Source: a virus. Taken from it: a DNA stretch of 30,645 nucleotides. The stretch spans positions 1-30,645 of the IMG/VR virus record IMGVR_UViG_3300047495_000041. One strand, 5' to 3'. Positions 721 to 29,674 of this stretch are shown piece after piece. How positions within the stretch are numbered: position 1 is the first letter of the stretch; the number at the start of each line of letters is the position of its first letter. A program made the translations under genes and the position numbers. The notes beneath the pieces are model-generated. The model did no database searches, was not told the DNA's origin, and saw nothing but the letters and a program-made list of their open reading frames with translations.

Positions 721-1074
721 ATGAAGGCATCTTCTGTTGCGGCTTCGGCCGCTTCCAAGGCTCCTCCGGCCGCTGTTGTCGCCAAGGCGGCCTCCGCCGC
801 TCCCGCGCCGGGCAAGATCAAGGCCAGCGCTCCCGCTTCCAAGGCTCCGGCCAAGGCAGCCCCCGCGCCTGTCCGCTTCGATGTCTCGAAGTACAGCAAG
901 ACAATGTGGATCAGGCTCCTTGTGGCGCGCGACCCTAAGATGTCGCTGGAAAATCTGTCCGCCGCGCTCAAGGCTGGCGGATTGGACATCAGCAAGGCGA
1001 CAATCTCGACAATCCGCATCGATGCACAGCGGACAATCGAGGCGATGCGCCTAGAAGGCCGCTACAAGGATTGA
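721..1074 (+). CDS. Ala/Lys/Pro-rich protein with C-terminal helical domain (paralogue of the 28777 gene)
   Basis: 117 aa. Residues 1-50 are a low-complexity, positively charged Ala/Lys/Pro/Ser tail like histone H1 or bacterial histone-like tails. Residues about 60-117 form a compact domain (IRLLVARDPKMSLENLSAAL and following) that aligns with the C-terminal domain of the minus-strand protein at 27977-28777: both share an R-L-L/M-L-x-A-x-x-P core, SLE, L and a KA(T/S) helix. The shape, basic tail plus small helical domain, suggests a DNA-binding or nucleoid-associated protein; that is inference. It has a good ribosome binding site (GAAGGA, spacing 8), its own leader hairpin and its own terminator, so it is probably a single-gene unit. 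Confidence 0.75.
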   Translation: MKASSVAASAASKAPPAAVVAKAASAAPAPGKIKASAPASKAPAKAAPAPVRFDVSKYSKTMWIRLLVARDPKMSLENLSAALKAGGLDISKATISTIRIDAQRTIEAMRLEGRYKD

Positions 1075-1103: not shown

Positions 1104-1131
1104 GAGGGGGGCTTAGGCTCCCCTCTTTTTT
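1104..1131 (+). terminator. Rho-independent terminator after the 721 gene
   Basis: GAGGGGGGC, loop TTAG, GCTCCCCTC, then TTTTTT. It starts 30 bases after the stop codon at 1074. Confidence 0.88.
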
Positions 1132-1269
1132 GTCCTAATTTTGGAAAGGCTTGCCCAATGACAAAAAAGCATTTTGAATTGGCTTGTGCTGGCAAGCCAT
1201 CGCGCTAGCCTGCCATCCGCTCCCCCGGCCCTAGGCTTGCAGCCTAGGGCTTTTCTTTTGCCCTGTGTT

Positions 1270-1697: not shown

Positions 1698-1885
1698 CCG
1701 CAGTTAAGAAAAAGCATGCTTATTACGTAAGGGGCGCCGTAGTTTAGCATGGACGGGTGGCATGCTCCGTAGTTTATAGTCAATAACCGGCAGTTTCATT
1801 TACTCTAGCCGCAGTTAAGAACCGCTTAGCACATTCATCTCCCGCGCCCTCCGCAGTTTTAGTATATAATGAATGGCCCGCAGTT
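1698..1885. repeat. Seven direct copies of a CCGYAGTT motif
   Basis: Copies of CCGCAGTT, CCGTAGTT or CGGCAGTT, usually followed by T or A, have their AGTT core at 1702, 1741, 1771, 1792, 1813, 1855 and 1882. Spacings are 39, 30, 21, 21, 42 and 27 bases, all multiples of three. The frame they share contains several stop codons, so this is not a gene as it stands. Further copies occur at 2415 and 2685 (inside the 2347-2703 gene) and near 3049. Iterons or binding sites for a phage protein are the simplest explanation. Confidence 0.6.
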
Positions 1886-1909: not shown

Positions 1910-2347
1910 TCACTTTCTTAGACTCTTCCGCAAGCTTTCTTCGGCCTTAGACTCTTCCGCAAGCTTTCTTCGGCGGTTTCTAGTCTTGTCGTCTGTGTTA
2001 TCTTGGACAGTTCCGTAACATAGATTTGATATACGGTTATTAGTATAGATGTCATCTAGGTGCCTACAAACTTTACCTACGGGTTTCGGACCCACAAAAG
2101 TCATCAATATAACCGACGCAAGGGTGAACTGCTTTTGCTTGCCATCATCGCCAAACAGCCCAATGGCTAGTTCCTTATAAGACTCCTTCGCTTTCTTCTT
2201 TATCCAAGGTTTCATAATCCCAGGAGAAGTTGGAGTCTTTAATGAGTTTCCTGGCTTTCGCCAAGACCTAACTCTCCCATCAGTGCTGGCTTCGTATTCA
2301 GGATAGCCGGGAACGGTTTTCCACCGTTCCCTTACTCTAACCCTCAT
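1910..2347 (-). CDS. HNH homing endonuclease (NUMOD4-like + HNH)
   Basis: 145 aa. The N-terminus WKTVPGYPEYEASTDGRVRS is the NUMOD4 DNA-binding motif found in phage HNH homing endonucleases. It is followed by a basic middle and an HNH_3-type core (VCRHLDDIYTNNRISNLCYG), in which RHLDD..NNR..NL is the active-site beta-beta-alpha fold with Arg in place of the first usual His. The start codon overlaps the stop of the upstream gene (TAATG), so it is co-transcribed with the operon as its last gene. The C-terminus is altered by a 29-bp tandem duplication (see the repeat at 1917-1974). Family assignment is confident; the cleavage site is unknown. Confidence 0.85.
   Translation of the reverse strand: MRVRVRERWKTVPGYPEYEASTDGRVRSWRKPGNSLKTPTSPGIMKPWIKKKAKESYKELAIGLFGDDGKQKQFTLASVILMTFVGPKPVGKVCRHLDDIYTNNRISNLCYGTVQDNTDDKTRNRRRKLAEESKAEESLRKSLRK
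1917..1974. repeat. Perfect 29-bp tandem duplication in the 3' end of the HNH gene
   Basis: Copies at 1917-1945 and 1946-1974 are identical. Because 29 is not a multiple of three, the second copy is read in another frame and creates the present C-terminus ending SLRKSLRK. Removing one copy would extend the frame by about 30 codons into the non-coding region. Confidence 0.85.
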
Positions 2348-2703
2348 TAGTGAGGCTTACCGGCAGTTCTTCTTAGAAAGTCCATTGGGTCCTCGTATCC
2401 TTTCTCACCCAACCCCGTAGTTTTGGTTGCGCTAGCCCGATCGGCCTCGGCCATTTGGTCGGCTATCTTGCCGTTATTGATTGTGCGGATAATCTCGTGC
2501 TGCAAAAGAAAGTGAGCCTGCGCCATGCGCGCTCCCGGTTCCCCAGCTATCAGATGCCCTATCGCATGGCCTAGGATAACTATGATATCATACAGTGTAT
2601 AGTTGACAGGGTCAAATGCTTTGGTGAGCAACTCAACAACCTCAGAGCTTGCCTCGCAAACCTGTGCTGGGGTCAACTCCTGGTCCGCAGTTTTATTTGT
2701 CAT
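2347..2703 (-). CDS. Hypothetical protein, 118 aa
   Basis: Not recognised. It is predicted largely helical, with a hydrophobic segment near residues 40-55 (YDIIVILGHAIGHLIAG) that is interrupted by His and Gly and could be a buried helix rather than a membrane span. The N-terminal coding sequence includes one CCGCAGTT motif copy and the middle another. The stop overlaps the start of the HNH gene. About 58 bases separate it from the upstream gene, one of the few gaps in this operon. Confidence 0.6.
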   Translation of the reverse strand: MTNKTADQELTPAQVCEASSEVVELLTKAFDPVNYTLYDIIVILGHAIGHLIAGEPGARMAQAHFLLQHEIIRTINNGKIADQMAEADRASATKTTGLGEKGYEDPMDFLRRTAGKPH

Positions 2704-2761: not shown

Positions 2762-3217
2762 TCAGTGCCCCAGATAGTAATAGACTCTCTTGTCGTCACC
2801 CCTATATAGATTACCTGATGCTTGGCCGTCTGCTACCAAGGCTTCGTAGTCGCACCAGACGTCTTCTATATCAGGATCATCTATCCCGGCGAGGTCATCT
2901 AACCCGCCCTTACGCATATCCGCGCTGACAAGTTGGATAAATATGGCGTTGCATTCCTCAGGAGTAAACGCCGCGATCTCCTCCTTGGACCACGCGGACC
3001 ACGCGCCAAAGTCACGAATATGACTACGCAAAGCTTCGAGTTGCTCCTCCGTAGTTAACAATGGCGCATCCTTGGCTTGCTCTAGGGCAGCTTGCCAAGT
3101 CGTTATGGAGGCATTGGGGCCATGCGTGGCAACGGAGCCACTAAACTCCCATGTGTTCACGTTGTAGAAGAAGTCGGTGATGTCGATGTAGAAGAAGTCG
3201 GGGATGTCGATTTCCAT
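2762..3217 (-). CDS. Acidic hypothetical protein with N-terminal duplicated octapeptide
   Basis: 151 aa, strongly acidic and rich in Trp, Asp and Glu. The N-terminus contains two near-identical units IDIPDFFY and IDITDFFY, encoded by a 24-bp tandem repeat. A central part (DFGAWSAWSKEEIAAFTPEE) looks like a helical module, but I cannot name the family. Its acidity and small size would fit a DNA mimic or inhibitor, but no motif proves that. It begins two bases after the XRE regulator stop, so the two are probably co-translated. Confidence 0.6.
   Translation of the reverse strand: MEIDIPDFFYIDITDFFYNVNTWEFSGSVATHGPNASITTWQAALEQAKDAPLLTTEEQLEALRSHIRDFGAWSAWSKEEIAAFTPEECNAIFIQLVSADMRKGGLDDLAGIDDPDIEDVWCDYEALVADGQASGNLYRGDDKRVYYYLGH
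3164..3211. repeat. 24-bp tandem repeat, two copies, one mismatch
   Basis: 3164-3187 and 3188-3211 agree at 23 of 24 bases. The length is a multiple of three, so the reading frame is kept and an eight-residue unit is duplicated at the N-terminus of the acidic protein. Confidence 0.85.
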
Positions 3218-3219
3218 GG

Positions 3220-3426
3220 TTATTTTTCTCCCGTTAGTAGATGGCCTGCATCAACCTCAAGCGCTTTGGCTATACGCTTGAGGGCAGCAATGGAAGGCAT
3301 GGCCTCCCCTTGCTCATACATGGAAATGGAGGACTGAGTTAGCTTGGCATGCTCGGCCAGTAGTTGCTGAGTCATACCTATCTCCTCCCTCCTTTCCCGT
3401 AGGCGTTGCCCCAGCCCGTTACTCAC
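3220..3426 (-). CDS. XRE-family helix-turn-helix regulator
   Basis: 68 aa, essentially one Cro/C1-type HTH domain: LGQRLRERREEIGMTQQLLA with recognition helix TQSSISMYEQGEAMPS, then the usual ALKRIAKALEVDAGHLL helices. I choose the GTG at 3426 because AAGGAG lies seven bases upstream; longer forms would only add unrelated residues. The start lies inside the 3' end of the preceding gene, indicating translational coupling. The protein probably regulates phage early promoters or an adjacent gene; its operator is not identified. Confidence 0.85.
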   Translation of the reverse strand: MSNGLGQRLRERREEIGMTQQLLAEHAKLTQSSISMYEQGEAMPSIAALKRIAKALEVDAGHLLTGEK

Positions 3427-3802
3427 TGGCAGGCTCCTTAATGATAGAGTAGGAGCTATGTCTGCCTGACTCGCTGACGGCCAAGGCATCCCGCCGTATG
3501 GCCTTGGCGATCTCGGGAACGGTTAGGGGCCGCAAAGTTACCTCCTTGAGATGCTCAATGACCTCACTGTCAATTACCTCCGCTCCAATCACCTCGTCCT
3601 TATAACCCATCTTTACCTTGGGTTTGCGAGGCTTGGGTACCGGAAGCGTCTTCGCAGAGTGATATGTCGTTGCCTCGTTATCGTGTGCAGGTTGAACATC
3701 CACACACACCTCATTAACAATTACCAGCTTGTCGCCGGGGAAGGCTAGTATCTCGGCCACAACAGGGATTAGTGTGGCTTGGATGGTTGTTTGGTTGCTC
3801 AT
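3419..3802 (-). CDS. Hypothetical protein, 127 aa
   Basis: Not recognised. The N-terminal half is beta-prone, the middle has a Pro/Lys stretch (PVPKPRKPKVK) and the C-terminal part (LTVPEIAKAIRRDALAVSES) resembles a small helix-turn-helix. The ATG at 3802 has GAGG nine bases upstream and overlaps the stop of the preceding gene (TGATG). It overlaps the XRE gene by a few bases, so the two may be translated together. Confidence 0.6.
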   Translation of the reverse strand: MSNQTTIQATLIPVVAEILAFPGDKLVIVNEVCVDVQPAHDNEATTYHSAKTLPVPKPRKPKVKMGYKDEVIGAEVIDSEVIEHLKEVTLRPLTVPEIAKAIRRDALAVSESGRHSSYSIIKEPASE

Positions 3803-4828: not shown

Positions 4829-6398
4829 AGAACTCTCTCCCGCTGTGCAAGCCCTTTGAAACCATATCCTTGCCCTCATTGGCCAAGTCTAGGACATGCT
4901 GGTCCATGGGCGAGGCTACCACATCCTCGATCAATAGTTTGCGACTTCCTCGGCTGGCAGCCATGGGCCGCATCTCCGCTTGCTGGCGTTGAGCTGGGCT
5001 TGGTGTGCCCTCAACAAAGGCCATATAGTCAGCAGCGGATAGATCAATGCCCACCGAACCAGAGGCAAGGTTGGACAAGAAGACGGTGGCTTCTCTTGAC
5101 TGAAAGCTGGCTATCATCTCATCCCTGCCCTTTGTTACGCCGCCCCTGATCCATACAAAGGGAATGCCAGCCCTTCTTAGCTCGCGAGCAAGCATGAGGC
5201 CGGTGGGGATGAAGTGATAGAACAGAATGGATTGGGTTTGAAAGCGCCCGGCGGCGATCTTGGATCGCAGCCATCTAAGCTTAGTATGATCGGGCAACGT
5301 TGATATCTGGTTATGGCCATCCTCGTCTATCCAAGCATCGTGGCCTGAGCTTATCTGCCTAAGCCGTATAAAGGTGTTCTCTTGGGAAGTCTTGCCCAGG
5401 ACATGCTTGTCGCGGATACGCTCTAGAATACGGTTATAGATAGCTAGTTGCTCCCCCTTCATCACAAGCTGGGTGTTTCTGCGCTCGACTGTAGCTGTCC
5501 TGACTTCCTTAAACTCATAGGCGATCGAGAACAGGTGTAGCTTGTTGGCAAGCAATGGCAGCTTGGTCTTATCAAACTTATACTCAAAGCCACCATTACC
5601 AAAGTATCGCTTGACACGCTTGCCGAAGGCTACTTGGAAGAAGTGCTGACTTGTAGACAGCACATTACCATCGTCTATCAGCATTCCCTGTGCCCATAGA
5701 TCATCAGGGAAGCGCCCAAAGGGTGTGCCGGTCAAGCCTAGTTTCCACTTGTGGCCTGCGGTTATAGCCATCCCTACCTTGGTTGTTAGTGCTGATGGAG
5801 TCTTACAGTAATGTATCTCGTCTATAGTGCTGAGTGTGAACTCCTTGGCTGCTAGTTCTGCTGCATCCCAGTCAATGACTAGTTTCATACGGCGCTCCTT
5901 GCCGCGTGGCTTAACTAGTTTCTTGACTGAGAACAACTGCTGTAGCGCGCTCCATGCCACAACAACCAGATCGGGCTGCTTTTCAACGGCGGTTAAAAAT
6001 TCGTCGTTGCTTCCCGAACGGACAATGATTGCATGTAATGAAGTGTACTCTGGAATTTGCATTCGCCAGACACCTAGGACTGTAGGGCTGGGCACAATCA
6101 CGATCCCCGGCCCCTGCCACATCCCGCATCGTCTCAGGTGGCTCGCCCATTCCAGGGTTACCCGTGTCTTGCCTAGCCTTGGCTCTAGGAAGGATAGCGA
6201 GCGCCCGAAGTATAAAGCGGCGCATAAAGCCCGTAGTTGATGATCCCATAGGGGTCCCCCTTTGCTTATCTTGAAGTGCTTACCCGTAGTGGTTTCTATG
6301 ATTTCATGTATTCGCCTCTCGGATATACGCTTGAAATCAGGGACATGGGATGTGTCCCTTCGCAACCAACGATCAATGCTATCTGGGTCTATGCTCAT
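4806..6398 (-). CDS. SNF2/UvsW-type DNA helicase
   Basis: 530 aa superfamily 2 ATPase. It shows DHQLRALCAALYFG (Q-like motif), PRLGKTR (Walker A), IVIVPSPTVLGVW (Ia), DEIH (Walker B), GLTGTPFGRFPDDLW (III region), and in the second RecA domain SNLASGSVGIDLSAADY with AEMRPMAASRGS in the place of motif VI. This matches phage SNF2-like helicases and the role of T4 UvsW in branch migration and origin R-loop removal; the exact role here is inferred. The start is the ATG at 6398 (ATGA overlap with the upstream small gene); a longer frame exists but lacks support. Confidence 0.85.
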   Translation of the reverse strand: MSIDPDSIDRWLRRDTSHVPDFKRISERRIHEIIETTTGKHFKISKGGPLWDHQLRALCAALYFGRSLSFLEPRLGKTRVTLEWASHLRRCGMWQGPGIVIVPSPTVLGVWRMQIPEYTSLHAIIVRSGSNDEFLTAVEKQPDLVVVAWSALQQLFSVKKLVKPRGKERRMKLVIDWDAAELAAKEFTLSTIDEIHYCKTPSALTTKVGMAITAGHKWKLGLTGTPFGRFPDDLWAQGMLIDDGNVLSTSQHFFQVAFGKRVKRYFGNGGFEYKFDKTKLPLLANKLHLFSIAYEFKEVRTATVERRNTQLVMKGEQLAIYNRILERIRDKHVLGKTSQENTFIRLRQISSGHDAWIDEDGHNQISTLPDHTKLRWLRSKIAAGRFQTQSILFYHFIPTGLMLARELRRAGIPFVWIRGGVTKGRDEMIASFQSREATVFLSNLASGSVGIDLSAADYMAFVEGTPSPAQRQQAEMRPMAASRGSRKLLIEDVVASPMDQHVLDLANEGKDMVSKGLHSGREFYDLFKIR

Positions 6399-8423: not shown

Positions 8424-9140
8424 CTAGTCCACACCCAACAGCTTGTGAAGTTGGTAACTCACCCTATAGCCATGCTCCAAGGCGACACGGGTGACAAGGT
8501 TTAGGTTGTGCTCATTCAGGATAGGGTCCTGGTCATCGCAAGGCTGCACCCAGATTGTATGGCTACCTAGTAGGCCCAAAGACTCCCTACGCTGGCCTCG
8601 CCAAACATTGGGAGGTAGTCCATCTTCCTCCACACCATCCTCGGCTCGGATTATATACTTCCAATGATGACAATTAGTAACTATGAGCGGGTTAAGCTTT
8701 GGGGTTTTTGGCGAGCAAACAATGATGGGAAAGGAGAGGTTTTGGTAGTTATTCCAATTACTATAGCAGTCAGTCATAGAAAGCGGCCAGACAGTGCCTG
8801 CCGTCTCAATCTGAAAGTTAAGATGCTGCATGCATGGCTGATCCATCAGGGCGCCAATCTCTTGCAGCATCGGCTCGCCCCCTGTGAGGACAACGTTAGA
8901 GCATTTACTGCGCCTTGTTTCGGCCAGGACAACGGCTGTCAGGCTATCTAGCGAGTGATGAGTTCCGCCCGCAAAGTCCGTATCGCAAAAACTGCACCGG
9001 AGATTGCACCCGGAAAAGCGAACAAACACAGCAGGCATACCCGACCAAGGTCCTTCGCCTTGAATAGTGTAGAAAATTGAGTGGAGCATGAAGCCATCGT
9101 TTAGGAGGCGCTTATGCGCAATCTCGTTTTGGCCGAACAT
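8424..9140 (-). CDS. queE: 7-carboxy-7-deazaguanine synthase (radical SAM), QueE
   Basis: 238 aa. It converts 6-carboxytetrahydropterin to 7-carboxy-7-deazaguanine with SAM and a 4Fe-4S cluster. Visible: FYTIQGEGPWSG substrate loop (residues 23-34), the cluster motif GCNLRCSFCDT with Cys45, Cys49 and Cys52 (CX3CX2C) and LTGGEPML. Length fits the family. It follows queD after only 3 bases, so the two pathway steps are co-translated. There is a region rich in Ser, Asn and Pro in the middle (about residues 125-155) that is longer than in compact homologues. Assignment is secure. Confidence 0.93.
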   Translation of the reverse strand: MFGQNEIAHKRLLNDGFMLHSIFYTIQGEGPWSGMPAVFVRFSGCNLRCSFCDTDFAGGTHHSLDSLTAVVLAETRRSKCSNVVLTGGEPMLQEIGALMDQPCMQHLNFQIETAGTVWPLSMTDCYSNWNNYQNLSFPIIVCSPKTPKLNPLIVTNCHHWKYIIRAEDGVEEDGLPPNVWRGQRRESLGLLGSHTIWVQPCDDQDPILNEHNLNLVTRVALEHGYRVSYQLHKLLGVD

Positions 9141-9143
9141 TGA

Positions 9144-9641
9144 CTAGAAGCCTTCGCTAAAGGATGTTGCGGAACACTTGCGTGTCTCTTCTACACGAAC
9201 ACGAACTAGCTTCACATTCAACTGTAAAAGCAATCGAGGGCCGATCGCTTCATGCAAGTAAGCCGCCATGTTTTCAACGCTAGTTTCAAACGGAACTACC
9301 GCTATAGACTCCTTTAGAAGGTTTCTGATGGTAGGATAAGTGTCTGTTTCATATTCATAAAACCTAAAATCATTCCATAAACTCACGTACTCTTTGTAGA
9401 AGGGGTCCTCCTCCCACACTAGGCACTTGTGATCCCACTCCTTCTCTAGCCAGTTAACAAAAAGGGCTTTAATCATACCAAAGTCTATGATGCGGTTGCT
9501 GGCGCCAGGAACAGGCGGTACAAGCGAAGCGAAGGTGAATGTCACGCGATAATTGTGACCGTGTATTTGGTGGCATGGACCGAGATCAGTAACAGCCCTA
9601 TGCGCCGCCGAGAAGTCGTGATAGCGTTCTACTGTGAGCAT
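9144..9641 (-). CDS. queD: 6-carboxytetrahydropterin synthase, QueD
   Basis: 165 aa. It converts dihydroneopterin triphosphate to 6-carboxytetrahydropterin. Zinc ligands His14, His27 and His29 and catalytic Cys23 are seen in DFSAAHRAVTDLGPCHQIHG, followed by IIDFGMIK, WDHKCL and the C-terminal VRVEET that binds the pterin ring. I start at the ATG at 9641, nine bases after GAGG; a TTG fifteen bases upstream overlaps the previous stop and is less likely. It supplies the substrate for the adjacent QueE. Confidence 0.93.
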   Translation of the reverse strand: MLTVERYHDFSAAHRAVTDLGPCHQIHGHNYRVTFTFASLVPPVPGASNRIIDFGMIKALFVNWLEKEWDHKCLVWEEDPFYKEYVSLWNDFRFYEYETDTYPTIRNLLKESIAVVPFETSVENMAAYLHEAIGPRLLLQLNVKLVRVRVEETRKCSATSFSEGF

Positions 9642-9652
9642 GTGCTTATCCC

Positions 9653-9904
9653 TCAACGTTTGTAGCGGAACTTAGGCTCGGGGTCACCCGGATGCTCAAT
9701 CGGACCATGCTGCCAATTCTGGACAACCTCTATTGGGATACCATTTTGCAACAGCATGAGTCCGGTTAAGGCATCATCCTGAAACGCATATCTGCGGATA
9801 AGCCGTATTTCAGTTGCCCTTTCCTCAATAAGCCAGTAGGCCAGAGTAGCTGTGCCCCATCTTTCAACATCTGTAGAACCCGGGGGAAGTATACGAAAGG
9901 TCAT
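9653..9904 (-). CDS. Hypothetical protein, 83 aa
   Basis: Small protein with Trp and Arg-rich helices (YWLIEERATEIRLIRRYAF) and a polar C-terminus. The start is set by an ATGA overlap with the previous gene. Its neighbours are a small protein and queD; no function assigned. Confidence 0.6.
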   Translation of the reverse strand: MTFRILPPGSTDVERWGTATLAYWLIEERATEIRLIRRYAFQDDALTGLMLLQNGIPIEVVQNWQHGPIEHPGDPEPKFRYKR

Positions 9905-19487: not shown

Positions 19488-19672
19488 TTAAGTAATGCTT
19501 CCGCATCAGAAGATGCGTATTCTCTAATATCCAAGGTGGCGATAAAATATCTACCGGGGGCGTACTTATCCAAATAAGTTACTTTTATTGGTTCGCCCTT
19601 CCAAGCTGGGTCATGCATCCTTTTTTGCACTGCTGCTACTAAATCGGCAATCATAGCTTCGCCATTTATCAT
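19484..19672 (-). CDS. Hypothetical protein, 62 aa
   Basis: Small alpha/beta protein (MIADLVAAVQKRMHD, then GRYFIATLDIREY). The ATG at 19672 overlaps the polymerase stop (ATGA), and its own stop overlaps the clamp loader start. A longer frame starting inside the polymerase gene is not supported. Position between polymerase and clamp loader suggests an accessory replication role. Confidence 0.6.
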   Translation of the reverse strand: MINGEAMIADLVAAVQKRMHDPAWKGEPIKVTYLDKYAPGRYFIATLDIREYASSDAEALLK

Positions 19673-22600
19673 CTCACATAATCCCCTGTGTAAGTTGTTA
19701 ACTCTTCGACATCCGCCCAATTCTTTTCGCCAAGGCTGCACTCAACTGACAGCGGAACGATCTGCCATGGAAAGCGCACTTTGACCATGATGGGCATGAT
19801 CTCCTCTATATAGCGCGCGATCTCCTCGTCGCTGTTTGGCAGGATAAAAGTAATGTCATCATGTACATTTATCCTGGGGTGAAGATATGGGTCCTTGCGC
19901 TGCCGCGAAAGTATTGAAAGCTCGTTTTGCGCTTCCAATACTATGTCGGCGGCTACACCTTGGATCGGATTGTTAATAACTTCATTGCCTGGAACGACGG
20001 CATGCCTAACCCGGCCCGTAATAGTCGGCACATCGCCTGTCTGTTGGTAATTGCTGCGCTGAGTATCGATCCAGCGTTTGACACCCCGATGCACATACCA
20101 AAACTCCTCGGCAATCCCCTCCATGATCTTTAGTGGCACACCCGTCTTACGAGCGCAGGATTTGGCGGAGGAGCCGTAGAAGGATGCGAATACAAAGTCA
20201 GTCTTGATTATGGTTCTTCCGCCCTTGCGTATCTTCTTCTCATCGGTCTCGCCCGTCTTGTCAGCTAGACGGATAAGGTAGTCGGGATAAGCCTCTAGCA
20301 CCTTATTGAGCCAAACGGAGTGGATATCCTCGCCGTTTATGATGCTTTGGCACAATACCTTATCTCTGCTGACCATAGCAATGATGCGAGCCTCTAGCTG
20401 GCCAAAGTCGATCGGAACAATCACATGCCCTTTACCTGGGATTATGATACGCCGGATTTCCCGATTTTTCCTTTTGGGGAAATTTTGTATATTTGGATTT
20501 TCCGAATTATGATGTATTAACCCCTGACATAAATAGGAATGATCCTCGTCAACCTCAATATCCCAAACAGCTATTTTCCCAACGTATACTATACTTTTAA
20601 TAACTTGGTATGATGCATTTTTTGATGAGCTTTCTTGGTCATCAAGGCTAGGTTGTCTGGATCGTTGTTCTGCCTGTTCTTGTCTATATGATGAACATCC
20701 AAGCTGGACGGAAGTTCGCATACATGCATCCCAAGCAAACCTGCCATGACTACCCGGTGTTTTGGGTAACGTTCTCCATCTATAACTATAGTTATGTAAC
20801 CATGCCCGTCCTCGCAATCCCTTATCCAACGATGATGTAATTTTCCATTCTTGCCCAACATAGGGTTCTTCTCGCCTAGCTTGCTCCGCTGATACCTCAG
20901 CCGCTTCTCTGCTTTGTATATCTCTGGTGTGATATCTTCCTTCAGGATCAAGGTTATGGTTTCGGTATTCACCCCGTGCTTTTTTCCCAACTCGGCTGCT
21001 GTGGGTTTCTTGCTCCCGAGATATTCCCTCTTCACCAAAGCCCTGTTTAGTGGTGTCAGAAATGTTTTCGTGATGCCCATAACTACAAACCTCATCGCCT
21101 AAGTTTAAATCGCCTATTCGTTGCCAGCCCGTTCTGGTTAGCACTCTGTGTTCTAGCGTGCAAACAATGAAGGCACCCGATCCTAGGACAATTCTGTATT
21201 GTGGCGCAAGCCCTTTATAAATTTTCCTTAATACTTGGCGGAGCCTTCCTTTATGCGTTAGAACTTTATCCCCTTCTTGGGGGACATACTCATCAAACCT
21301 AAATGAGCCTCTGGTTGTTTCTAGTACTGTGTCCCCTGATACGCAAGATAGACGTAGGGTAGCTGTCTTCATGGTGTTGTATGACGGATGCAGTAGCCCA
21401 TCAGGATATCGAACAGACACCATACCACACGGATCAATGTAGGTGGATATCTGTTTCTGGGCCTCTCGATACTCAAGCACAGTCTGCACAAGCGGATGCT
21501 CGCTAGCATATTCCTTTAGGGTATCCTCACCCGTCATTATGTTACCCTTGGAGGTTTTGGGTAACATAATGTGAGCATAGTTAACCAGTACTTCGCCTAT
21601 CCTGTCGTTGGAGCCGATATCAAACTCTTTGCCTACGGCAGCTTGCCAAGCCTTGACTTCAAAGATTTCGTGGGCTGCTGCCTCGGCTGCCTGCATCTTG
21701 GCTAACCATTGCTTGCGGAGGTCGACAACAGCATCTTGGTCAACTTGAAGTCCTAGGAGTTCCATCTCTACGGTGGACTCATTGGCCTCTACGATACGGT
21801 TGTAGCCCCTATCCTGCACATGCGGCCGTTGTTTATCGTAGCACAGCCTAGAAGCTAAAGCGTCCAACCCATTATAGATCAGGACCTCCTCTACTGGGTA
21901 TTCATCCAATCTAGTTGTGTCCAAATCGGACAAAGCCTTGACGTTTACACCTAGCATGATGCGGCTGACAACAGCCAAGCCTGTGCCATGCTGGCGCTGG
22001 AAGTAAAGCCTGGCTGTCGCCCTAGAGTCCTCAAAGGGCATTATGTCGGCATCAGGGAATAGATGCCTTACCCACACATATTCCATGCTCGCGCTATGCG
22101 CCAGTAATGGATAGCTGGTAACAACATGACGGAGGACATTAAGCCCCCAAGCAGTTACTTGTTCCCTATGTCCGATCGGAACAGCAAAGGTTGTGCGCCC
22201 ATCGGAAAAGGCTGCCGTTAGTACCTTGGCGCCAAACACGTAAGGCTTGAGGTCTGTTGTTTCTAAGTCAACAGCAATGGGGTGCGACATCTTAGTTAGT
22301 AATGCCATGGCCTCGGACTGAGTCTTGGGCATCAGCACAAGGTCAGTGCTTAGATCGGCTATCCTAGGCTTACCCCATTTATCCACTTCCCGGAAGAAGG
22401 TTTTTAGCTCGGCCTTGAGAACGGAGAACTCAGCATCCCATTCTGGGTTACGGTCTCTGCCCTGTTCCAGGTAGGCAGACATATCGTTAACAGGTAGGTA
22501 CCAGTAAACCTTATTCCCGATCTGAGCCGCCATCCGCAAGCCATGCAGCATCCATACCTGTGCTACCTTGGCATCGGGGAATACTCTATGCAGGGCTTGC

Positions 22601-23040
22601 TGGCCAATACCTATGATGGCCTTGATGGGCAAAGTGGCTAGATCGGCCTCTAGGTGCTCCCCACAAGCGTGAATGGCTTGTGGGGGCATGCTATCAACAG
22701 GTGTGTAACATCTGACCAAGTTCTGGTAAACAAGCCTCCCCGCATCTCGTGCAGGGATTGCCTTGCGGAATAGCTGGCCACCGGGGGATTTTAGTTGTGT
22801 GCCCTTGTAATCGTCCTCCTCCAAGGGACGGCCACCCAGAACAAGGATATCCCCCGATCGGGTATTGCCAGACAGGGGCATGCGGGGAGTTGAGATTGTG
22901 CGCCATGAAAGCTTGAGTGGACAAACATCACATCCCCGTTCCTTCGTAAACTCCACCTTGGGCTTGATCTTTGCCCTTGTTTTGGTCTGCTTTGGTATTG
23001 TCTCAATATCGGGAATGGCGGAAAAAAACTTGCTGGGCAC
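19669..23040 (-). CDS. Family A DNA polymerase with N-terminal UDG-like domain and an intein
   Basis: 1123 codons; 843 aa after intein removal. Residues 30-215 resemble a 4Fe-4S uracil-DNA glycosylase: Cys37, Cys40, Cys111 and Cys126 in CDVCPLKL, NLVRCYTPV and IHACGEHLEADL, with GGRPLEEDDYKG where family 4/5 enzymes have GEAPGxxE; the HPS motif is not obvious, so activity is doubtful. Residues 250-400 are a 3'-5' proofreading exonuclease (DLETTDL, HSASMEYVW, YNGLDALASRLCY). The polymerase has TLRLS/SENPNIQNFP, motif A DFGQLEAR (Asp878), motif B RTIIKTDFVFASFYG and motif C INVHDDITF (Asp1061). It copies the phage genome; the clamp and loader are encoded next to it. Confidence 0.93.
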   Translation of the reverse strand: MPSKFFSAIPDIETIPKQTKTRAKIKPKVEFTKERGCDVCPLKLSWRTISTPRMPLSGNTRSGDILVLGGRPLEEDDYKGTQLKSPGGQLFRKAIPARDAGRLVYQNLVRCYTPVDSMPPQAIHACGEHLEADLATLPIKAIIGIGQQALHRVFPDAKVAQVWMLHGLRMAAQIGNKVYWYLPVNDMSAYLEQGRDRNPEWDAEFSVLKAELKTFFREVDKWGKPRIADLSTDLVLMPKTQSEAMALLTKMSHPIAVDLETTDLKPYVFGAKVLTAAFSDGRTTFAVPIGHREQVTAWGLNVLRHVVTSYPLLAHSASMEYVWVRHLFPDADIMPFEDSRATARLYFQRQHGTGLAVVSRIMLGVNVKALSDLDTTRLDEYPVEEVLIYNGLDALASRLCYDKQRPHVQDRGYNRIVEANESTVEMELLGLQVDQDAVVDLRKQWLAKMQAAEAAAHEIFEVKAWQAAVGKEFDIGSNDRIGEVLVNYAHIMLPKTSKGNIMTGEDTLKEYASEHPLVQTVLEYREAQKQISTYIDPCGMVSVRYPDGLLHPSYNTMKTATLRLSCVSGDTVLETTRGSFRFDEYVPQEGDKVLTHKGRLRQVLRKIYKGLAPQYRIVLGSGAFIVCTLEHRVLTRTGWQRIGDLNLGDEVCSYGHHENISDTTKQGFGEEGISREQETHSSRVGKKARGEYRNHNLDPEGRYHTRDIQSREAAEVSAEQARREEPYVGQEWKITSSLDKGLRGRAWLHNYSYRWRTLPKTPGSHGRFAWDACMRTSVQLGCSSYRQEQAEQRSRQPSLDDQESSSKNASYQVIKSIVYVGKIAVWDIEVDEDHSYLCQGLIHHNSENPNIQNFPKRKNREIRRIIIPGKGHVIVPIDFGQLEARIIAMVSRDKVLCQSIINGEDIHSVWLNKVLEAYPDYLIRLADKTGETDEKKIRKGGRTIIKTDFVFASFYGSSAKSCARKTGVPLKIMEGIAEEFWYVHRGVKRWIDTQRSNYQQTGDVPTITGRVRHAVVPGNEVINNPIQGVAADIVLEAQNELSILSRQRKDPYLHPRINVHDDITFILPNSDEEIARYIEEIMPIMVKVRFPWQIVPLSVECSLGEKNWADVEELTTYTGDYVR
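20506..21345 (-). other. Intein in DNA polymerase (residues 566-845)
   Basis: 280 residues from Cys566 (CVSGDTVLETTRGSFRFDEY, block A), through block B CTLEHRVLTRTGWQRIGDL, to block F VWDIEVDEDHSYLCQG and block G LIHHN followed by Ser+1. It interrupts the conserved TLRLS|SENPNIQN segment just upstream of motif A. The stretch between blocks B and F has no nuclease motif in this frame; the same DNA codes an HNH nuclease in the +1 frame. Confidence 0.93.
20589..21080 (-). CDS. HNH homing endonuclease nested out of frame inside the polymerase intein
   Basis: 163 aa in the +1 frame relative to the polymerase. I start at the ATG at 21080, which has GAGG nine bases upstream; another ATG at 21095 is possible. 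Residues 26-48 look like a helix-turn-helix (PTAAELGKKHGVNTETITLI); KLGEKNPMLGKNGKLHHRW is a NUMOD3-type motif; residues 94-157 are the HNH_3 nuclease, with YPKHRVVMAGLLG, VHHIDKNRQNNDPDNLALMT (His130, His131, Asn residues) and a closing HQKMHH. It begins right after intein block B and ends 83 bases before the intein's end, just before block F. Confidence 0.88.
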   Translation of the reverse strand: MGITKTFLTPLNRALVKREYLGSKKPTAAELGKKHGVNTETITLILKEDITPEIYKAEKRLRYQRSKLGEKNPMLGKNGKLHHRWIRDCEDGHGYITIVIDGERYPKHRVVMAGLLGMHVCELPSSLDVHHIDKNRQNNDPDNLALMTKKAHQKMHHTKLLKV

Positions 23041-25244: not shown

Positions 25245-25414
25245 AAGCCATAGGATTTAGCCAACCATTCCAGCTTGTCTGCCGCATCCTCCGTCACTTG
25301 GTTTGTATGTGACAAGCCTCGCAGGCTTTTCACTAGCTCCCTACATGATGGGCCATTGTCAGCAATGACATGGCGAACGGGTTTCTTCTTAGGCTTGATC
25401 TGAACGCGGGGCAT
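25226..25414 (-). CDS. Hypothetical basic protein, 62 aa
   Basis: N-terminal basic patch MPRVQIKPKKKPVRH, followed by one amphipathic helical part. The MPRVxxKP start resembles the N-terminus of the 27527-27895 protein. It overlaps the dpdA 3' end by 26 bases. Function unknown. Confidence 0.5.
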   Translation of the reverse strand: MPRVQIKPKKKPVRHVIADNGPSCRELVKSLRGLSHTNQVTEDAADKLEWLAKSYGLWMPDR

Positions 25415-26465
25415 CTAGTAAGTTCTCCTGCAAGAGTTCGAGTTGTTCCCGAAAGGGTATCAGGCGCTCGCATGTGCCCATCGGGTCGTAGACATAGGAG
25501 CGTATCTGGTTTGTGATCTTGGGATTGGTCACATAGAAGTAAGAAGTTAGCATCTTCCTATGCTTCGCGGCTGCAAGACACACCATAGCGATCACATTGT
25601 TACCTGCCACGAGATACAGATTGAATGTGGGGATGTGCAATCCCTTTATATGCGGCGCAGCACAAGTAGGCTTATTGAAGCCGTAACTCTCGCGAAACAG
25701 GATCGGGGTCTTAGTATTTACTTGGGCTTCGAGTCCCATGTAGTAAAGAGCGGCAATGTAGCAACGAGTAATAAAGGCCGACTTGCTGTCTCTTCTCTGT
25801 AATAGGTCTGGATCAATCCCATGTTTGGTGAGGATGCTAACCATTGCATCGTGCTCGTCCCCTTCCATACGACCAATGTCCTGTGTAGCCCTTGTGGAAT
25901 AGCCATCGTTGCGGAATGCGAGTCTACGGCTATCGCTAAATTGGATTGTTCCGGTTCGTTGGGATGAATATATCCAAGTTGTGGTATCCGAAGATTGCCA
26001 CGGAAACCGGATGAGGGAGTCTCGTCTTCCCTCCCCGAATGCGTGCGCCTTAACAATGGGCCTACCAGAACTATCCACAAGGTGAGACCAAGCCATAGCA
26101 TACCAATTATCACTTTGCCCACGGGAAACGATGCTGGAAGAAGAAAGACCAATGTAATCACAACCAGTATCCAAATAGCGACCAAGCCAATCAAGATTTT
26201 CCCCGACGTGAACAACTGGGATAGGCTTGAGTCCCTGCTTTCGCATATACTTGTAGTTCGCCCAACCTTGTTGGGCGGCTTCTTCGGGTCTTCCTGGGTT
26301 GATGACATCAAGGGCTACTCCGTGTTTGATCCATTCCTGGTTCTCTAGGAGGAAGTTTGTGTATTCCTTGAGATTTATCGGCTTGCCGAGCTTCCATGCA
26401 GAGAACGCACCACTATCCATGATGAGGTCGACTTGAGGCTCACGCTGGCGAAGCTGTGCCCTCAT
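25389..26465 (-). CDS. dpdA: DpdA-like DNA guanine transglycosylase
   Basis: 358 aa. DpdA proteins are TGT-family enzymes that exchange guanine in DNA for a 7-deazaguanine base. The N-terminus VDLIMDSGAFSAWKLGKPI is characteristic of phage DpdA; Asp17 lies in the conserved acidic position. YIGLSSSSIVSRG and PIVKAHAFGEG match the barrel strands where TGTs have conserved Gly-rich and HAxG segments. Its substrate should be the product of FolE, QueD, QueE, QueC and QueF, so preQ1 is the best guess. It acts on phage DNA in the cytoplasm and protects it from host restriction. Coupled by ATGA overlap to the preceding small gene. Confidence 0.85.
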   Translation of the reverse strand: MRAQLRQREPQVDLIMDSGAFSAWKLGKPINLKEYTNFLLENQEWIKHGVALDVINPGRPEEAAQQGWANYKYMRKQGLKPIPVVHVGENLDWLGRYLDTGCDYIGLSSSSIVSRGQSDNWYAMAWSHLVDSSGRPIVKAHAFGEGRRDSLIRFPWQSSDTTTWIYSSQRTGTIQFSDSRRLAFRNDGYSTRATQDIGRMEGDEHDAMVSILTKHGIDPDLLQRRDSKSAFITRCYIAALYYMGLEAQVNTKTPILFRESYGFNKPTCAAPHIKGLHIPTFNLYLVAGNNVIAMVCLAAAKHRKMLTSYFYVTNPKITNQIRSYVYDPMGTCERLIPFREQLELLQENLLDAPRSDQA

Positions 26466-26758
26466 TGGAGCATATCGCGCAAGGCATCGGTAAGCCGCTT
26501 GATATCCATTTTGGTTAGCAGTTTATGGACGAACTCCTCGGGCATGAACACTTCTAGGCTAGGGTTAAGCTTTTGGAACTGAACTTCGCCTCCCGGGTTG
26601 ATCTTGAGCGCATGCGATCGGACAAGAGCATTGGTAACCCCTGTCTTGGTGCCTGCCTCATCATCGTCGGTGTCAGGGACACGAATAATCGCGACACCAA
26701 GGAATTGCTGGCCTTGACGCCGATCGGGGTCCGCGAAGGATAGCCACCAAAGTGCCAT
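26462..26758 (-). CDS. Hypothetical protein, 98 aa
   Basis: Starts MALWWLSFADPDRRQGQQFL and has beta-strands followed by a C-terminal helix (KLLTKMDIKRLTDALRDML). I do not know the family. It is translated with dpdA by a 4-base overlap and so may be an accessory for DNA modification. Confidence 0.6.
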   Translation of the reverse strand: MALWWLSFADPDRRQGQQFLGVAIIRVPDTDDDEAGTKTGVTNALVRSHALKINPGGEVQFQKLNPSLEVFMPEEFVHKLLTKMDIKRLTDALRDMLQ

Positions 26759-26962
26759 TTATGCCTCATCCGCCCACACACGAAGAACGGCTCGCATCTC
26801 CCGCCGATCCTTTTCGTCGCCTTCGGCTACTAACGTGTGGGCCTTGGCGACATCCCTCCGCATGAACTGTTCGCGGATCGGCACGGAGCCATTCACGGGC
26901 GCGGTTGTGAATTTGCCGGACACTTTGGTGGCAAGCCTATAGAGTTCTTCGTCCTTGGCCAT
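26759..26962 (-). CDS. Hypothetical protein, 67 aa
   Basis: A small charged helical protein, starting MAKDEELYRLATKVSGKF. I place the start at the ATG at 26962, one base after the folE stop; the longer in-frame version overlaps folE and is not needed. It is directly adjacent to the next gene. Not recognised. Confidence 0.6.
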   Translation of the reverse strand: MAKDEELYRLATKVSGKFTTAPVNGSVPIREQFMRRDVAKAHTLVAEGDEKDRREMRAVLRVWADEA

Positions 26963-26963
26963 C

Positions 26964-27527
26964 TCATACGATCCCCGAAAAGAACTCAGCCCTACAGCTA
27001 GGCTCATCATAGAATGTCCCGCGCAAGGCTGTGGTCTGTGTGACGGAATTGGGCTGGCTTACTCCCCTGCTCACCATGCAAAAATGCGTGGCGCGCATCC
27101 TGACAGCCACATTAGGAGAGACATGCATTACGAGGAAGTCAGCAATCTCCCCATTTAGCCTTTCTTGAACCTGTAGGCGCCGGGCAAAATGGTCAACAGC
27201 CCTAGCCAGCTTGGAAAGCCCGACTATGCCCGCCTCTGTCGGGATATAGGCTATGTCCGCTGTCCCGAAGAAAGGGGCTAAGTGATGCTCGCATGTGGAA
27301 TAGAACTGGATATCCCGAACAATCACCATCTGATTGTAGTTGACGCCCTCCTCCTTAAAGAGTGTCATCCTTGGGGGAGGCTCATGGTAGCCTTTTCCCC
27401 AAGTCTCTCTCCATGCCTTTAGAACACGGGCAGGCGTTCTGGTTAAGCCAGATCGCTCCGGATCAACCCCAATAAAACTGAGTAAAGTTTTTACTGCATC
27501 AAGGGGTGATTGTTCATATATCGGCAT
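26964..27527 (-). CDS. folE: GTP cyclohydrolase I, FolE
   Basis: 187 aa. It makes 7,8-dihydroneopterin triphosphate from GTP, the first step of 7-deazaguanine synthesis (and of folate). Zinc ligands Cys79, His82 and Cys150 in FYSTCEHHLAPFFG and ATHFCMVSRGV have the same spacing as in the E. coli enzyme. IVGLSKLARAVDHFARRLQV is the core family signature, QTTALRG the C-terminal one. The start overlaps the previous stop (TAATG). Having its own FolE frees the phage from host pterin levels. Confidence 0.95.
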   Translation of the reverse strand: MPIYEQSPLDAVKTLLSFIGVDPERSGLTRTPARVLKAWRETWGKGYHEPPPRMTLFKEEGVNYNQMVIVRDIQFYSTCEHHLAPFFGTADIAYIPTEAGIVGLSKLARAVDHFARRLQVQERLNGEIADFLVMHVSPNVAVRMRATHFCMVSRGVSQPNSVTQTTALRGTFYDEPSCRAEFFSGIV

Positions 27528-27895
27528 TAGCTATCTAGCTCCCTGCGAATAACATTGTCTGGGTGAATGAAGCAGCCGCACTCGGGGCAGACCCACTCAT
27601 GGCCTGTTGCTTTGAGGGCGCGTTTAAGGCGCTCTATCTCTGCATCCTTCTCTTGCATCTGGAAGGAGAGTTTGCGCTGGGCTTGGTTAAAGCCACGATT
27701 TTCGGCTAGCTTCTCGGCATGCTTGATTGTCTCGCGGTTGCTGTTCTGCAAAACGCGCAATTCATGCTCAAGCTCGCCTATCCGCTTATGAGCGCGATTG
27801 GCAGCGGATGGCTCATCCTCCCAAGGGAGCAAATGAAGCAGTTTTGGCTTGGGCTTCAAAGCCACCCTTGTCGGCTTTAGATTTACTCTCGGCAT
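27527..27895 (-). CDS. Coiled-coil protein with C-terminal zinc finger
   Basis: 122 aa. Basic N-terminus (PRVNLKPTRVALKPKPK), a long coiled coil from about residue 30 to 95 (heptads in IGELEHELRVLQNSN and MQEKDAEIERLKRALKA), and a short zinc knuckle WVCPECGCFIHPDN. Could dimerise through the coil and bind nucleic acid or protein by the zinc end. Not assignable to a named family. Confidence 0.65.
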   Translation of the reverse strand: MPRVNLKPTRVALKPKPKLLHLLPWEDEPSAANRAHKRIGELEHELRVLQNSNRETIKHAEKLAENRGFNQAQRKLSFQMQEKDAEIERLKRALKATGHEWVCPECGCFIHPDNVIRRELDS

Positions 27896-27917
27896 CTAGT
27901 AATCCCCCTTCCGCAAC

Positions 27918-27950
27918 GAAAAATGCCCCCCAGGATCGCTCCCAGGGGGC
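27918..27950 (-). terminator. Rho-independent terminator on the minus strand
   Basis: Read on the minus strand: GCCCCCTGGGA, loop GCGA, TCCTGGGGGGC, then ATTTTT. It sits just after the stop at 27977 and before the 27895 gene, so it separates or attenuates transcription between the Ala-rich protein and the folE-dpdA-replication operon. Confidence 0.88.
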
Positions 27951-27976
27951 AGTAGTTTATGCTCGATCGGAAAGGC

Positions 27977-28777
27977 TCAGTCAGCCCACTTCCCGACTTC
28001 CTTGATGGCGCGGATCGTGGCTTGCACATCGCCCTTGAGGGTAGTCAGGGTGGAAGCCTTGACATCGTTGAAGCCCTTCTTAGCGAGCTTCTCCCGCAGC
28101 TTTTCTAGACTCTCGTCCGGGTTCTTGGCGAGCAGCATGCGGACCTGGTAGGTGACACCATCCGGCTTCTTGGCGAAGGGAGCGGCCTTCTTGCCACCAA
28201 AGGCGACCTTCTTGGGTTCCGGCTCTTCCGCGAGTTCGGCATCCTTGGCTTTAACCGCTGCCCTGGCAGGGGCCTTGGCAGGGGCTGGCGCAGGCTTGGC
28301 GATAACCTTGCCAGCGCGAGCCTTGGGAGCAGGCTCAGGCTCGGCTTCCTCTGCCTCTTCCTCCTCGGCTTCCGCTTCCTCCTCAGGCTCCGGCTCGGGA
28401 GCGGCCTTTGCCTTACCTTTGGTGGCAGGCTTCGCGGCAGGCGCCGGGGCTGCCTTGGCCTTGGCCGGAACCGTCGGCGTGAAGCCGGGGCATTCCGGGA
28501 TCGGAACCTCTTCGTTGAGCGCCGTCACGGCCTCATTGAAGTATTCGAGTGCTTCGCTGTCCTCGGGAATGTGTTCGTTGAACACATCCTCCTCACCTTC
28601 TGCGAGGAAGGTCAGCAGACGGGACAGGTATGCCTCACCTGTCTCCTTGGCGCCCTGTTCGGCAAAATCCTCGTCGAGCGCCTTGGCGCATCCGATGAGG
28701 ATTTCATAGATGGTGGGCACATGCTTTTTCGCGGCCACTTTCTTGGTGGGCGCGGCGGCAACTGCAGCTTTGGCCAT
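27977..28777 (-). CDS. Ala/Lys/Pro/Glu-rich protein, probable DNA-binding, paralogue of the 721 gene
   Basis: 266 aa. Start: ATG at 28777, after GAGGGG; an upstream TTG is weaker. Residues 1-18 are AKAAVAAAPTKKVAAKK-type. Residues 20-95 form a helical domain (TIYEILIGCAKALDEDFAEQ). Residues 100-200 are low complexity: Ala/Lys/Pro stretches around an acidic Glu/Ala core. The last about 60 residues (VTYQVRMLLAKNPDESLEKL and on) align with the C-terminal domain of the plus-strand protein at 721-1074. H1-like composition and paralogy suggest a nucleoid protein; that is inference. It is followed by a strong terminator, so it likely forms a highly expressed unit. Confidence 0.75.
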   Translation of the reverse strand: MAKAAVAAAPTKKVAAKKHVPTIYEILIGCAKALDEDFAEQGAKETGEAYLSRLLTFLAEGEEDVFNEHIPEDSEALEYFNEAVTALNEEVPIPECPGFTPTVPAKAKAAPAPAAKPATKGKAKAAPEPEPEEEAEAEEEEAEEAEPEPAPKARAGKVIAKPAPAPAKAPARAAVKAKDAELAEEPEPKKVAFGGKKAAPFAKKPDGVTYQVRMLLAKNPDESLEKLREKLAKKGFNDVKASTLTTLKGDVQATIRAIKEVGKWAD

Positions 28778-28867
28778 GGAAATCAGTATCCCCTCAGAAA
28801 CATTCGTGTATAGAGATAAGGACAATTCCCGATCTCTTCGTTAGGCTAGCATGGGCATTCTAAACCT

Positions 28868-29674
28868 TCAAGCGCTTTCTTTCACCACCTTTGTCAATTT
28901 TGCCCTCTTTTTTGGCTTCTCCTCCGCCGATACTTGCTCCTTAGGTGCAGGCTGTTCTGTCAGAAACACAACAGGCTTTGGAACTGGCTTGGCGACAGCT
29001 AGTGGCTTGGGCGTAGGCTCTTCCATACCATTAGCGGCAAAAGCTTCCGCCCGCTCAGTACAAGCGCCGCATTTACCGCAGGGCACGTCCAACCCAGCAT
29101 AGCAGGACCATGTCTCGGAATAGTCTAGGTGAAGCCTCTTGCCGATGCTCAGGATATCGGTCTTGTTTAGCTCCATATAGGGCGCATGGAGTTCAACCCG
29201 ATCTTCGGTAGCAAAGTAGACTGTCTCCTTCATGGAAGCGAAGTACTCAGGCCGACAATCCGGGTAGATGGTATGATCGCCCGAATGGGCACCGTAATAG
29301 ACATCAACCTTATCATCCGTCTGCCTGGCCCATGCCTCGGCAATACCCATAGCGATTGACAGCATGATCGTGTTACGCCCAGGGACAACTGTCAACTTCA
29401 TGTTGTCCGCAGCATAATGCCCCTCCGGCACTGCGATATCGGATGTCAGGGAAGAGCCATTCAGGAAGGCTCCCATACCTGGCATGTCAAACACGATGTG
29501 CAGCACAGGCAGTTTGTCACACACCATCTTGGCGTATTCTAACTCCTTCTTGTGGCGCTGGTTGTAGTTAAAGCTGAGCACTTTAACCTCAGCTTTGGGG
29601 TTATTGAGCATAACATGATGCAACAGCGTATAGCTGTCCATGCCGCCGCTATAGATAACCAGAACTCGCTTCAT
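28868..29674 (-). CDS. queC: 7-cyano-7-deazaguanine (preQ0) synthase, QueC
   Basis: 268 aa. ATP-dependent conversion of 7-carboxy-7-deazaguanine to preQ0. PP-loop SGGMDS (residues 9-14) binds ATP; the zinc site is in CYAGLDVPCGKCGACTERAE. KTDILSIGKRL is also typical. A C-terminal extension of roughly 50 residues (EEPTPKPLAVAKPVPKP and a Lys-rich end) is absent from ordinary QueC and resembles the basic tails of other proteins here. No amidotransferase domain is fused, so it makes preQ0, not a 7-formamidino base. Start overlaps the previous stop by 4 bases. Confidence 0.94.
   Translation of the reverse strand: MKRVLVIYSGGMDSYTLLHHVMLNNPKAEVKVLSFNYNQRHKKELEYAKMVCDKLPVLHIVFDMPGMGAFLNGSSLTSDIAVPEGHYAADNMKLTVVPGRNTIMLSIAMGIAEAWARQTDDKVDVYYGAHSGDHTIYPDCRPEYFASMKETVYFATEDRVELHAPYMELNKTDILSIGKRLHLDYSETWSCYAGLDVPCGKCGACTERAEAFAANGMEEPTPKPLAVAKPVPKPVVFLTEQPAPKEQVSAEEKPKKRAKLTKVVKESA

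Follow-up and report, generated by a model that had tools for sequence, protein, structure and literature searches.

A same-facing array of CCGYAGTT octamers in a phage genome fragment as a probable cluster of protein-binding sites and a possible iteron-like origin or DNA-organizing site

We found that a convergent non-coding gap of a phage genome fragment contains seven same-facing copies of the octamer CCGYAGTT (AACTRCGG on the minus strand), which form an array at positions 1698-1885 (plus strand) of the window. This window corresponds to the entire IMG/VR virus record IMGVR_UViG_3300047495_000041, 30,645 bases in length. On the basis of word scans, the alignment of the copies, and simulations, the array is very probably a real cluster of protein-binding sites. 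Its function is assigned with less confidence; an iteron-like origin or a DNA-organizing cis-site is the most likely of the readings considered, but only a tentative one. Direct-repeat arrays of protein-binding sites are a known kind of element in phages, and this example is new. Six of the copies are exact (starting at 1698, 1737, 1767, 1809, 1851, and 1878), and the seventh, at 1788, reads CGGCAGTT and has one mismatch. The spacings between successive copies are 39, 30, 21, 21, 42, and 27 bases, as the preliminary description of this DNA had stated.

To evaluate the abundance of the motif, we counted it across the whole record and in shuffled versions of it, which was the check proposed in that description. 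There are 10 exact matches to CCGYAGTT, always on the plus strand, against an expectation of 1.31 for the two strands combined; this number was not reached in any of 100 shuffles of the record. As a control, the same pattern read in reverse yielded 3 + 5 copies in the record. The possibility that the motif is equally common throughout the genome, which had been put forward as an argument against a dedicated array, does not agree with these counts, which show no such general abundance. When one mismatch was allowed, no excess was observed in the record (37 copies versus 35.7 expected), indicating that the special status is limited to the near-exact word. We also simulated 100 order-2 Markov sequences, counting the copies of every 8-mer that has a single wildcard position; the maximum number of copies per 200 bp was three (86 times) or four (14 times), as compared with six in the array. 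The array, which is the densest octamer cluster in the window, therefore exceeds all 100 simulated sequences.

Word scans located further copies beyond the gap, all of them on the plus strand. The gene at 2347-2703 (minus strand), also analyzed by protein searches, contains three: CGGCAGTT at 2361 and CCGTAGTT at 2415, which together span 2361-2422, and an exact copy just within the start of the gene (2685-2692). The copies at 2415 and 2685 had previously been ascribed to adjacent genes; both are real, but they belong to this single gene. In addition to the copy at 2361, two exact copies had escaped the earlier inspection, one in gene 2762-3217 (3049-3056) and a distant one in the helicase gene (6231-6238) that may be owed to chance. 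Thus, six of the 10 exact copies lie in one gap, four are within genes, and none is found past 6238 of 30,645. With the few copies in the next genes, the cluster would cover about 1.4 kb. A NUMOD4/HNH endonuclease gene (1910-2347, minus strand), recognized by its domain matches, separates the array from the in-gene copies, and the word scan detected no copy in it. The 3' end of this gene includes a perfect 29-bp tandem duplication (1917-1974).

The alignment of the seven array copies revealed an 8-bp core with 90% pairwise identity, whereas identity is 23% in the upstream flank and 26% at 11 to 22 bases counted from the first base of the word, versus a background of 25%; the three bases just after the core have a slight AT preference (37%). 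This sharp core edge with flanks at background level suggests sites for a DNA-reading protein and not decayed duplications. A DNA site is also favored by RNA folding, given that the strands of 1690-1905 fold no better than shuffles (z 0.41 and 1.66). Searches for Rfam families and tRNAs found none, and a reading of ACURCGG as a UNCG tetraloop was discarded after inspection by eye revealed no pairing flanks.

All six spacings are multiples of three, as had been noted before; this would occur by chance 1 in 729 times, but it was noticed after the fact. The copies at 2361, 2415, 2685, and 6231 keep the phase of the array, and the one at 3049 is out of phase. Such a pattern could be expected if the array were the relic of a protein-repeat gene, that is, of a once longer version of gene 2347-2703 that was cut by the HNH gene. 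The array is indeed in the reading phase of this gene, in whose frame each copy reads x-Thr-Ala/Thr. Moreover, a first scan of the collection, which required three copies at distances of 19 to 49 bases, gave at least 119 stretches (a number that is not a census); these were mostly protein repeats among the matches listed, in which the spacings were multiples of three in 328 of 344 cases with an open frame and in 30 of 43 without one. However, the background identity of the flanks, the conservation of the wobble positions of the word, and the use of ACT in only 3 of the 10 Thr codons of gene 2347-2703 argue against this origin. The same can be said of the stop codons, mentioned in the preliminary description for one frame and present in all six frames of 1480-1925; no ORF of at least 60 aa covers the array. 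The degraded repeat gene, one of the two interpretations first offered for this region, is accordingly not supported, and a relic of this type seems to us quite improbable. Regarding the threes in the spacing, our first guess is chance recognized after the fact, and the second is a former reading frame.

The other interpretation first offered, an iteron array, was sustained only in part. As in iteron-type origins, the array has at least three direct repeats in the same orientation, and the repeated word is of the size of a protein site. Its single orientation, its bounded core, the compact phage, the convergent gap, and the replication operon are consistent with an iteron array. Nevertheless, helical phasing at 10.5 bp was not significant (R 0.42, p 0.29, 20,000 random placements); only the spacings of 21, 21, and 42 correspond to whole turns, and the best other period near this value, 10.1 bp, was obtained by trying many. 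No clear unwinding element stands out at the array: the 100-base windows starting at 1500-1560 have 41-43% GC, but the least stable 100-bp segments of the window lie elsewhere (9302, 20506, 19430, and 4695). No sign change of the GC skew was seen near the array, to the left of which there is only 1.7 kb. No replication initiator family was matched among the window proteins scanned, a subset of the ORFs. Because the helical spacing is not followed and no initiator was found, we do not classify the array as an iteron origin.

The array is located between rightward genes that end at 1074 and leftward genes that end at 1910. A consensus scan identified two intrinsic-terminator-like hairpins (1106-1124 and 1227-1251, within 1106-1259, plus strand) that close the rightward genes ahead of the array. 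The same gap contains a GCAT/ATGC-rich palindromic cluster with a 40-bp period (1329-1434), detected by repeat and word scans, which includes six GCAT and four ATGC at 1329-1411 and, over 1350-1434, a tandem repeat of 40 bp. The leftward block, which has its end at the array, encodes the HNH/NUMOD4 protein, an XRE regulator (3220-3489), a helicase, a DnaB-like helicase, and a RecA-like protein, as well as SbcCD-like proteins, a family A DNA polymerase (PolA), and QueC/QueD/FolE-like enzymes. The DnaB-like, helicase, PolA, and RecA-like genes provide a supporting context for the origin or DNA-organizing role.

This arrangement could also accommodate an orientation-dependent roadblock, in which a repressor-like phage protein bound to the sites would stop leftward transcription, in the manner of a stoperator, or the replication fork at the convergent operon end. 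Relative to the leftward genes, the 10 exact copies share a single orientation, the XRE-type regulator would be an available protein, and no terminator-like site was found on the minus strand of 1260-1910, which leaves the leftward operon without a visible intrinsic terminator in this stretch. However, the latter result comes from a simple consensus scan, and the same orientation is equally typical of iterons; we consider a roadblock rather unlikely. The more specific proposal that the octamers over the gap and the next genes represent a protein-dependent polar block (stoperator- or Ter-like) at the convergent end of the replication operon appears to us slightly less likely still, and we know of no polar site of this kind in phages of this group. 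The stoperators of Cluster A mycobacteriophages (PMC9283540) are single asymmetric 13-bp sites oriented with transcription and dispersed genome-wide in short intergenic spaces. They resemble the octamers in their asymmetry and in their single orientation relative to transcription, but here seven sites are gathered in one gap. Stoperators are bound by a monomeric repressor that combines an HTH with a stoperator domain.

We also evaluated whether the array could be the operator of a nearby promoter, for instance that of a hydrophobic ORF or one through which the HTH gene regulates itself. At a distance of 25 bp from the array there is the start of a possible hydrophobic ORF of 31 aa (1673-1578, minus strand), which has a transmembrane-like stretch and is preceded by GGAG. 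However, this ORF is in T-rich DNA and may be due to chance, and no sigma-70-like promoter was found in 1260-1910; an operator array is therefore viewed as unlikely.

Regarding the protein that could recognize the octamers, the most suitable local candidate is the one encoded at 721-1074 (plus strand), which, according to domain searches and structure prediction, combines a tail of low complexity, rich in Ala, Lys, and Pro, with an HTH-like domain of three helices at the C terminus; this domain is shared with protein 27977-28825 (38% identity over 58 residues, E 2e-10). Residues 61-110 form three predicted helices with pLDDT values of 86-91, and the fold resembles many helix-turn-helix domains with Z of about 5-6; these are generic matches, among which the DNA-binding domain of StbA ranks 50 (Z 4.8). 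Foldseek gave no significant match for this protein. As judged from the model, it is a plausible candidate DNA binder adjoining the array, and perhaps the array is bound by it. We propose that the array would act in cis as a group of asymmetric sites recognized by a single DNA-binding protein of the phage, and that protein 721-1074 or its paralogue 27977-28825 would load on successive sites, giving rise to a nucleoprotein complex. This complex could serve replication initiation, through the loading of the phage DnaB encoded in the same operon, or alternatively it could participate in the intracellular organization of the DNA. The binding of SPP1 gp38 to the ori repeats and that of StbA to the stbDRs are models for the proposed loading.

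The comparison with these systems shows both similarities and differences. The SPP1 origin consists of direct repeats and an AT-rich element (PMC6316719). The array shares with SPP1 oriL/oriR and gp38, and with the lambda O iterons, a cluster of same-facing repeats in a phage that has its own DnaB-like helicase and a replication operon; in contrast, here the repeat is only an octamer, its spacing is irregular and non-helical, the copies spill into neighboring genes, and there is neither a recognized initiator nor a clear unwinding element. The stbDRs of R388 are 9-bp repeats in two sets of five that are read by the small DNA-binding protein StbA, with extra copies nearby (PMC3098194). Very short direct repeats with extra copies elsewhere in the neighboring region are thus common to both cases, but the stbDRs have a regular two-base spacing and are placed around a promoter, no StbB was recognized here, and the StbA fold match of protein 721-1074 is not specific.

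To determine in which contexts the octamer is found in other phages, we carried out a second scan for AACTRCGG with 10-11-bp spacing, which gave 13 stretches as compared with four for a mirrored control word; this is weak evidence that the octamer is favored. Four of the 13 are inside genes of the replication-initiator type (L193, L195, L196, and L198). The Lin1244_N domain, which we take as a mark of replication initiators, was found in both genes tested (L193 and L198), and in L198 a DnaB gene is next to the Lin1244_N-type gene. The AACTGCGG repeats of these genes, mostly spaced at 11 bp (L193 8073-8102, L195 5755-5784, L196 169-198, and L198 8433-8484), likely constitute an in-gene origin. 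An AACTRCGG array is also present in an O-like initiator gene of L105. As a counterpoint to an origin role, nine of the 13 arrays are not in initiator genes, and for two of them (L192 and L194) no context was identified.

Two stretches (L197 and L201) are flanked by a tyrosine-integrase gene on one side and an HTH gene on the other, which would be in line with attP arm-type integrase sites. For the window, this explanation is very improbable, since all copies face one way, with no copy on the minus strand that could form an opposed arm, and the scan of window proteins gave no integrase. Three other stretches (L090 1296-1585, L199 4032-4310, and L200 2158-2436) have opposed AACTACGG arms around a core-like inverted repeat, with a spacing of mostly 11 bp, and these look like attP arm sites.

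A Terminase_2 gene lies no more than about 600 bp from each of these three stretches, two others (L013, which was tested, and its near-copy L093) are upstream of such a gene, and in L020 the array is inside the gene that directly precedes a large-terminase gene. This proximity is what would be expected of a pac (DNA-packaging) site bound by the small terminase. However, no terminase match was obtained for the L020 protein, the arrays of the L090 type have two opposed arms and are more like attP, and no terminase was found among the 18 proteins scanned (10 with PHROGs and Pfam, and eight more with Pfam; a subset of the ORFs) of the window, which is a fragment. The pac reading, initially based on three array lineages near terminases, was demoted because the second scan revealed initiator-type genes and integrase neighbors, and we now see it as unlikely. 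The arrays of L013, L090, L197, and L201 are similar to the one described here in having the same octamer in same-strand runs, but they differ in their 10-11-bp spacing, in the opposed arms of some of them, and in their terminase or integrase neighbors. Octamer arrays are thus found in several contexts (genes of the initiator type, attP-like regions next to integrases, and the vicinity of small terminases), and a match to the word must be taken with caution, as by itself it does not assign a function. A full-text literature search with the spellings of the octamer gave no title on a phage binding site among the matches listed.

According to protein comparisons, the phage is distantly related to Edwardsiella phage ZHS and to Vibrio Mardecavirus: its RecA-like protein is 47% identical to that of Edwardsiella phage ZHS and about 40% identical to those of Vibrio phages such as KF6 (recorded as Mardecavirus), and the DnaB alignment included 66 distant loci, with a best identity of 44%. 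No close relatives were found in IMG/VR using P0004, P0003, P0001, or protein 2762-3217, nor in genome contigs using P0003. Among phages, there were no close DNA relatives and no close relatives of P0001 and P0007, and protein 2762-3217 had only weak matches, the best with Xanthomonas phage XacN1 (E 3e-5). We inspected 24 distant kin records (22 from IMG/VR and two named phages), selected from the loci in hand among the nearest and longest; none showed three copies per 200 bases among the places listed, and scattered copies were present in 21 of them. The absence of the motif from this region in relatives had been anticipated as evidence against the array; as an array it is absent from these 24 records, but they are too distant (nearest DnaB 44%) to refute it. 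In L124, L125, and L181, the gaps that lie downstream of the helicase contain other repeats and not this octamer. The replication start is unannotated in the kin phage records examined (Edwardsiella phage ZHS and the Mardecavirus group), and if the array is an origin or an organizing site, it would be the first testable cis-element for this kin.

Two other features of the leftward block were recorded. The family A DNA polymerase gene (19669-23040, minus strand) encodes a protein that resembles a uracil glycosylase in its N-terminal part and contains an intein-like insert, whose match to Intein_splicing (E 1.8e-8) is slightly below the curated cut-off. In addition, 7-deazaguanine genes of the radical SAM/QueE-like, QueD/PTPS, FolE, and QueC types are present at 8424-9656 and 25389-29674 (minus strand), and a DpdA-like gene was assigned by kinship. 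As far as gene content can indicate, this set suggests that the phage DNA is modified.
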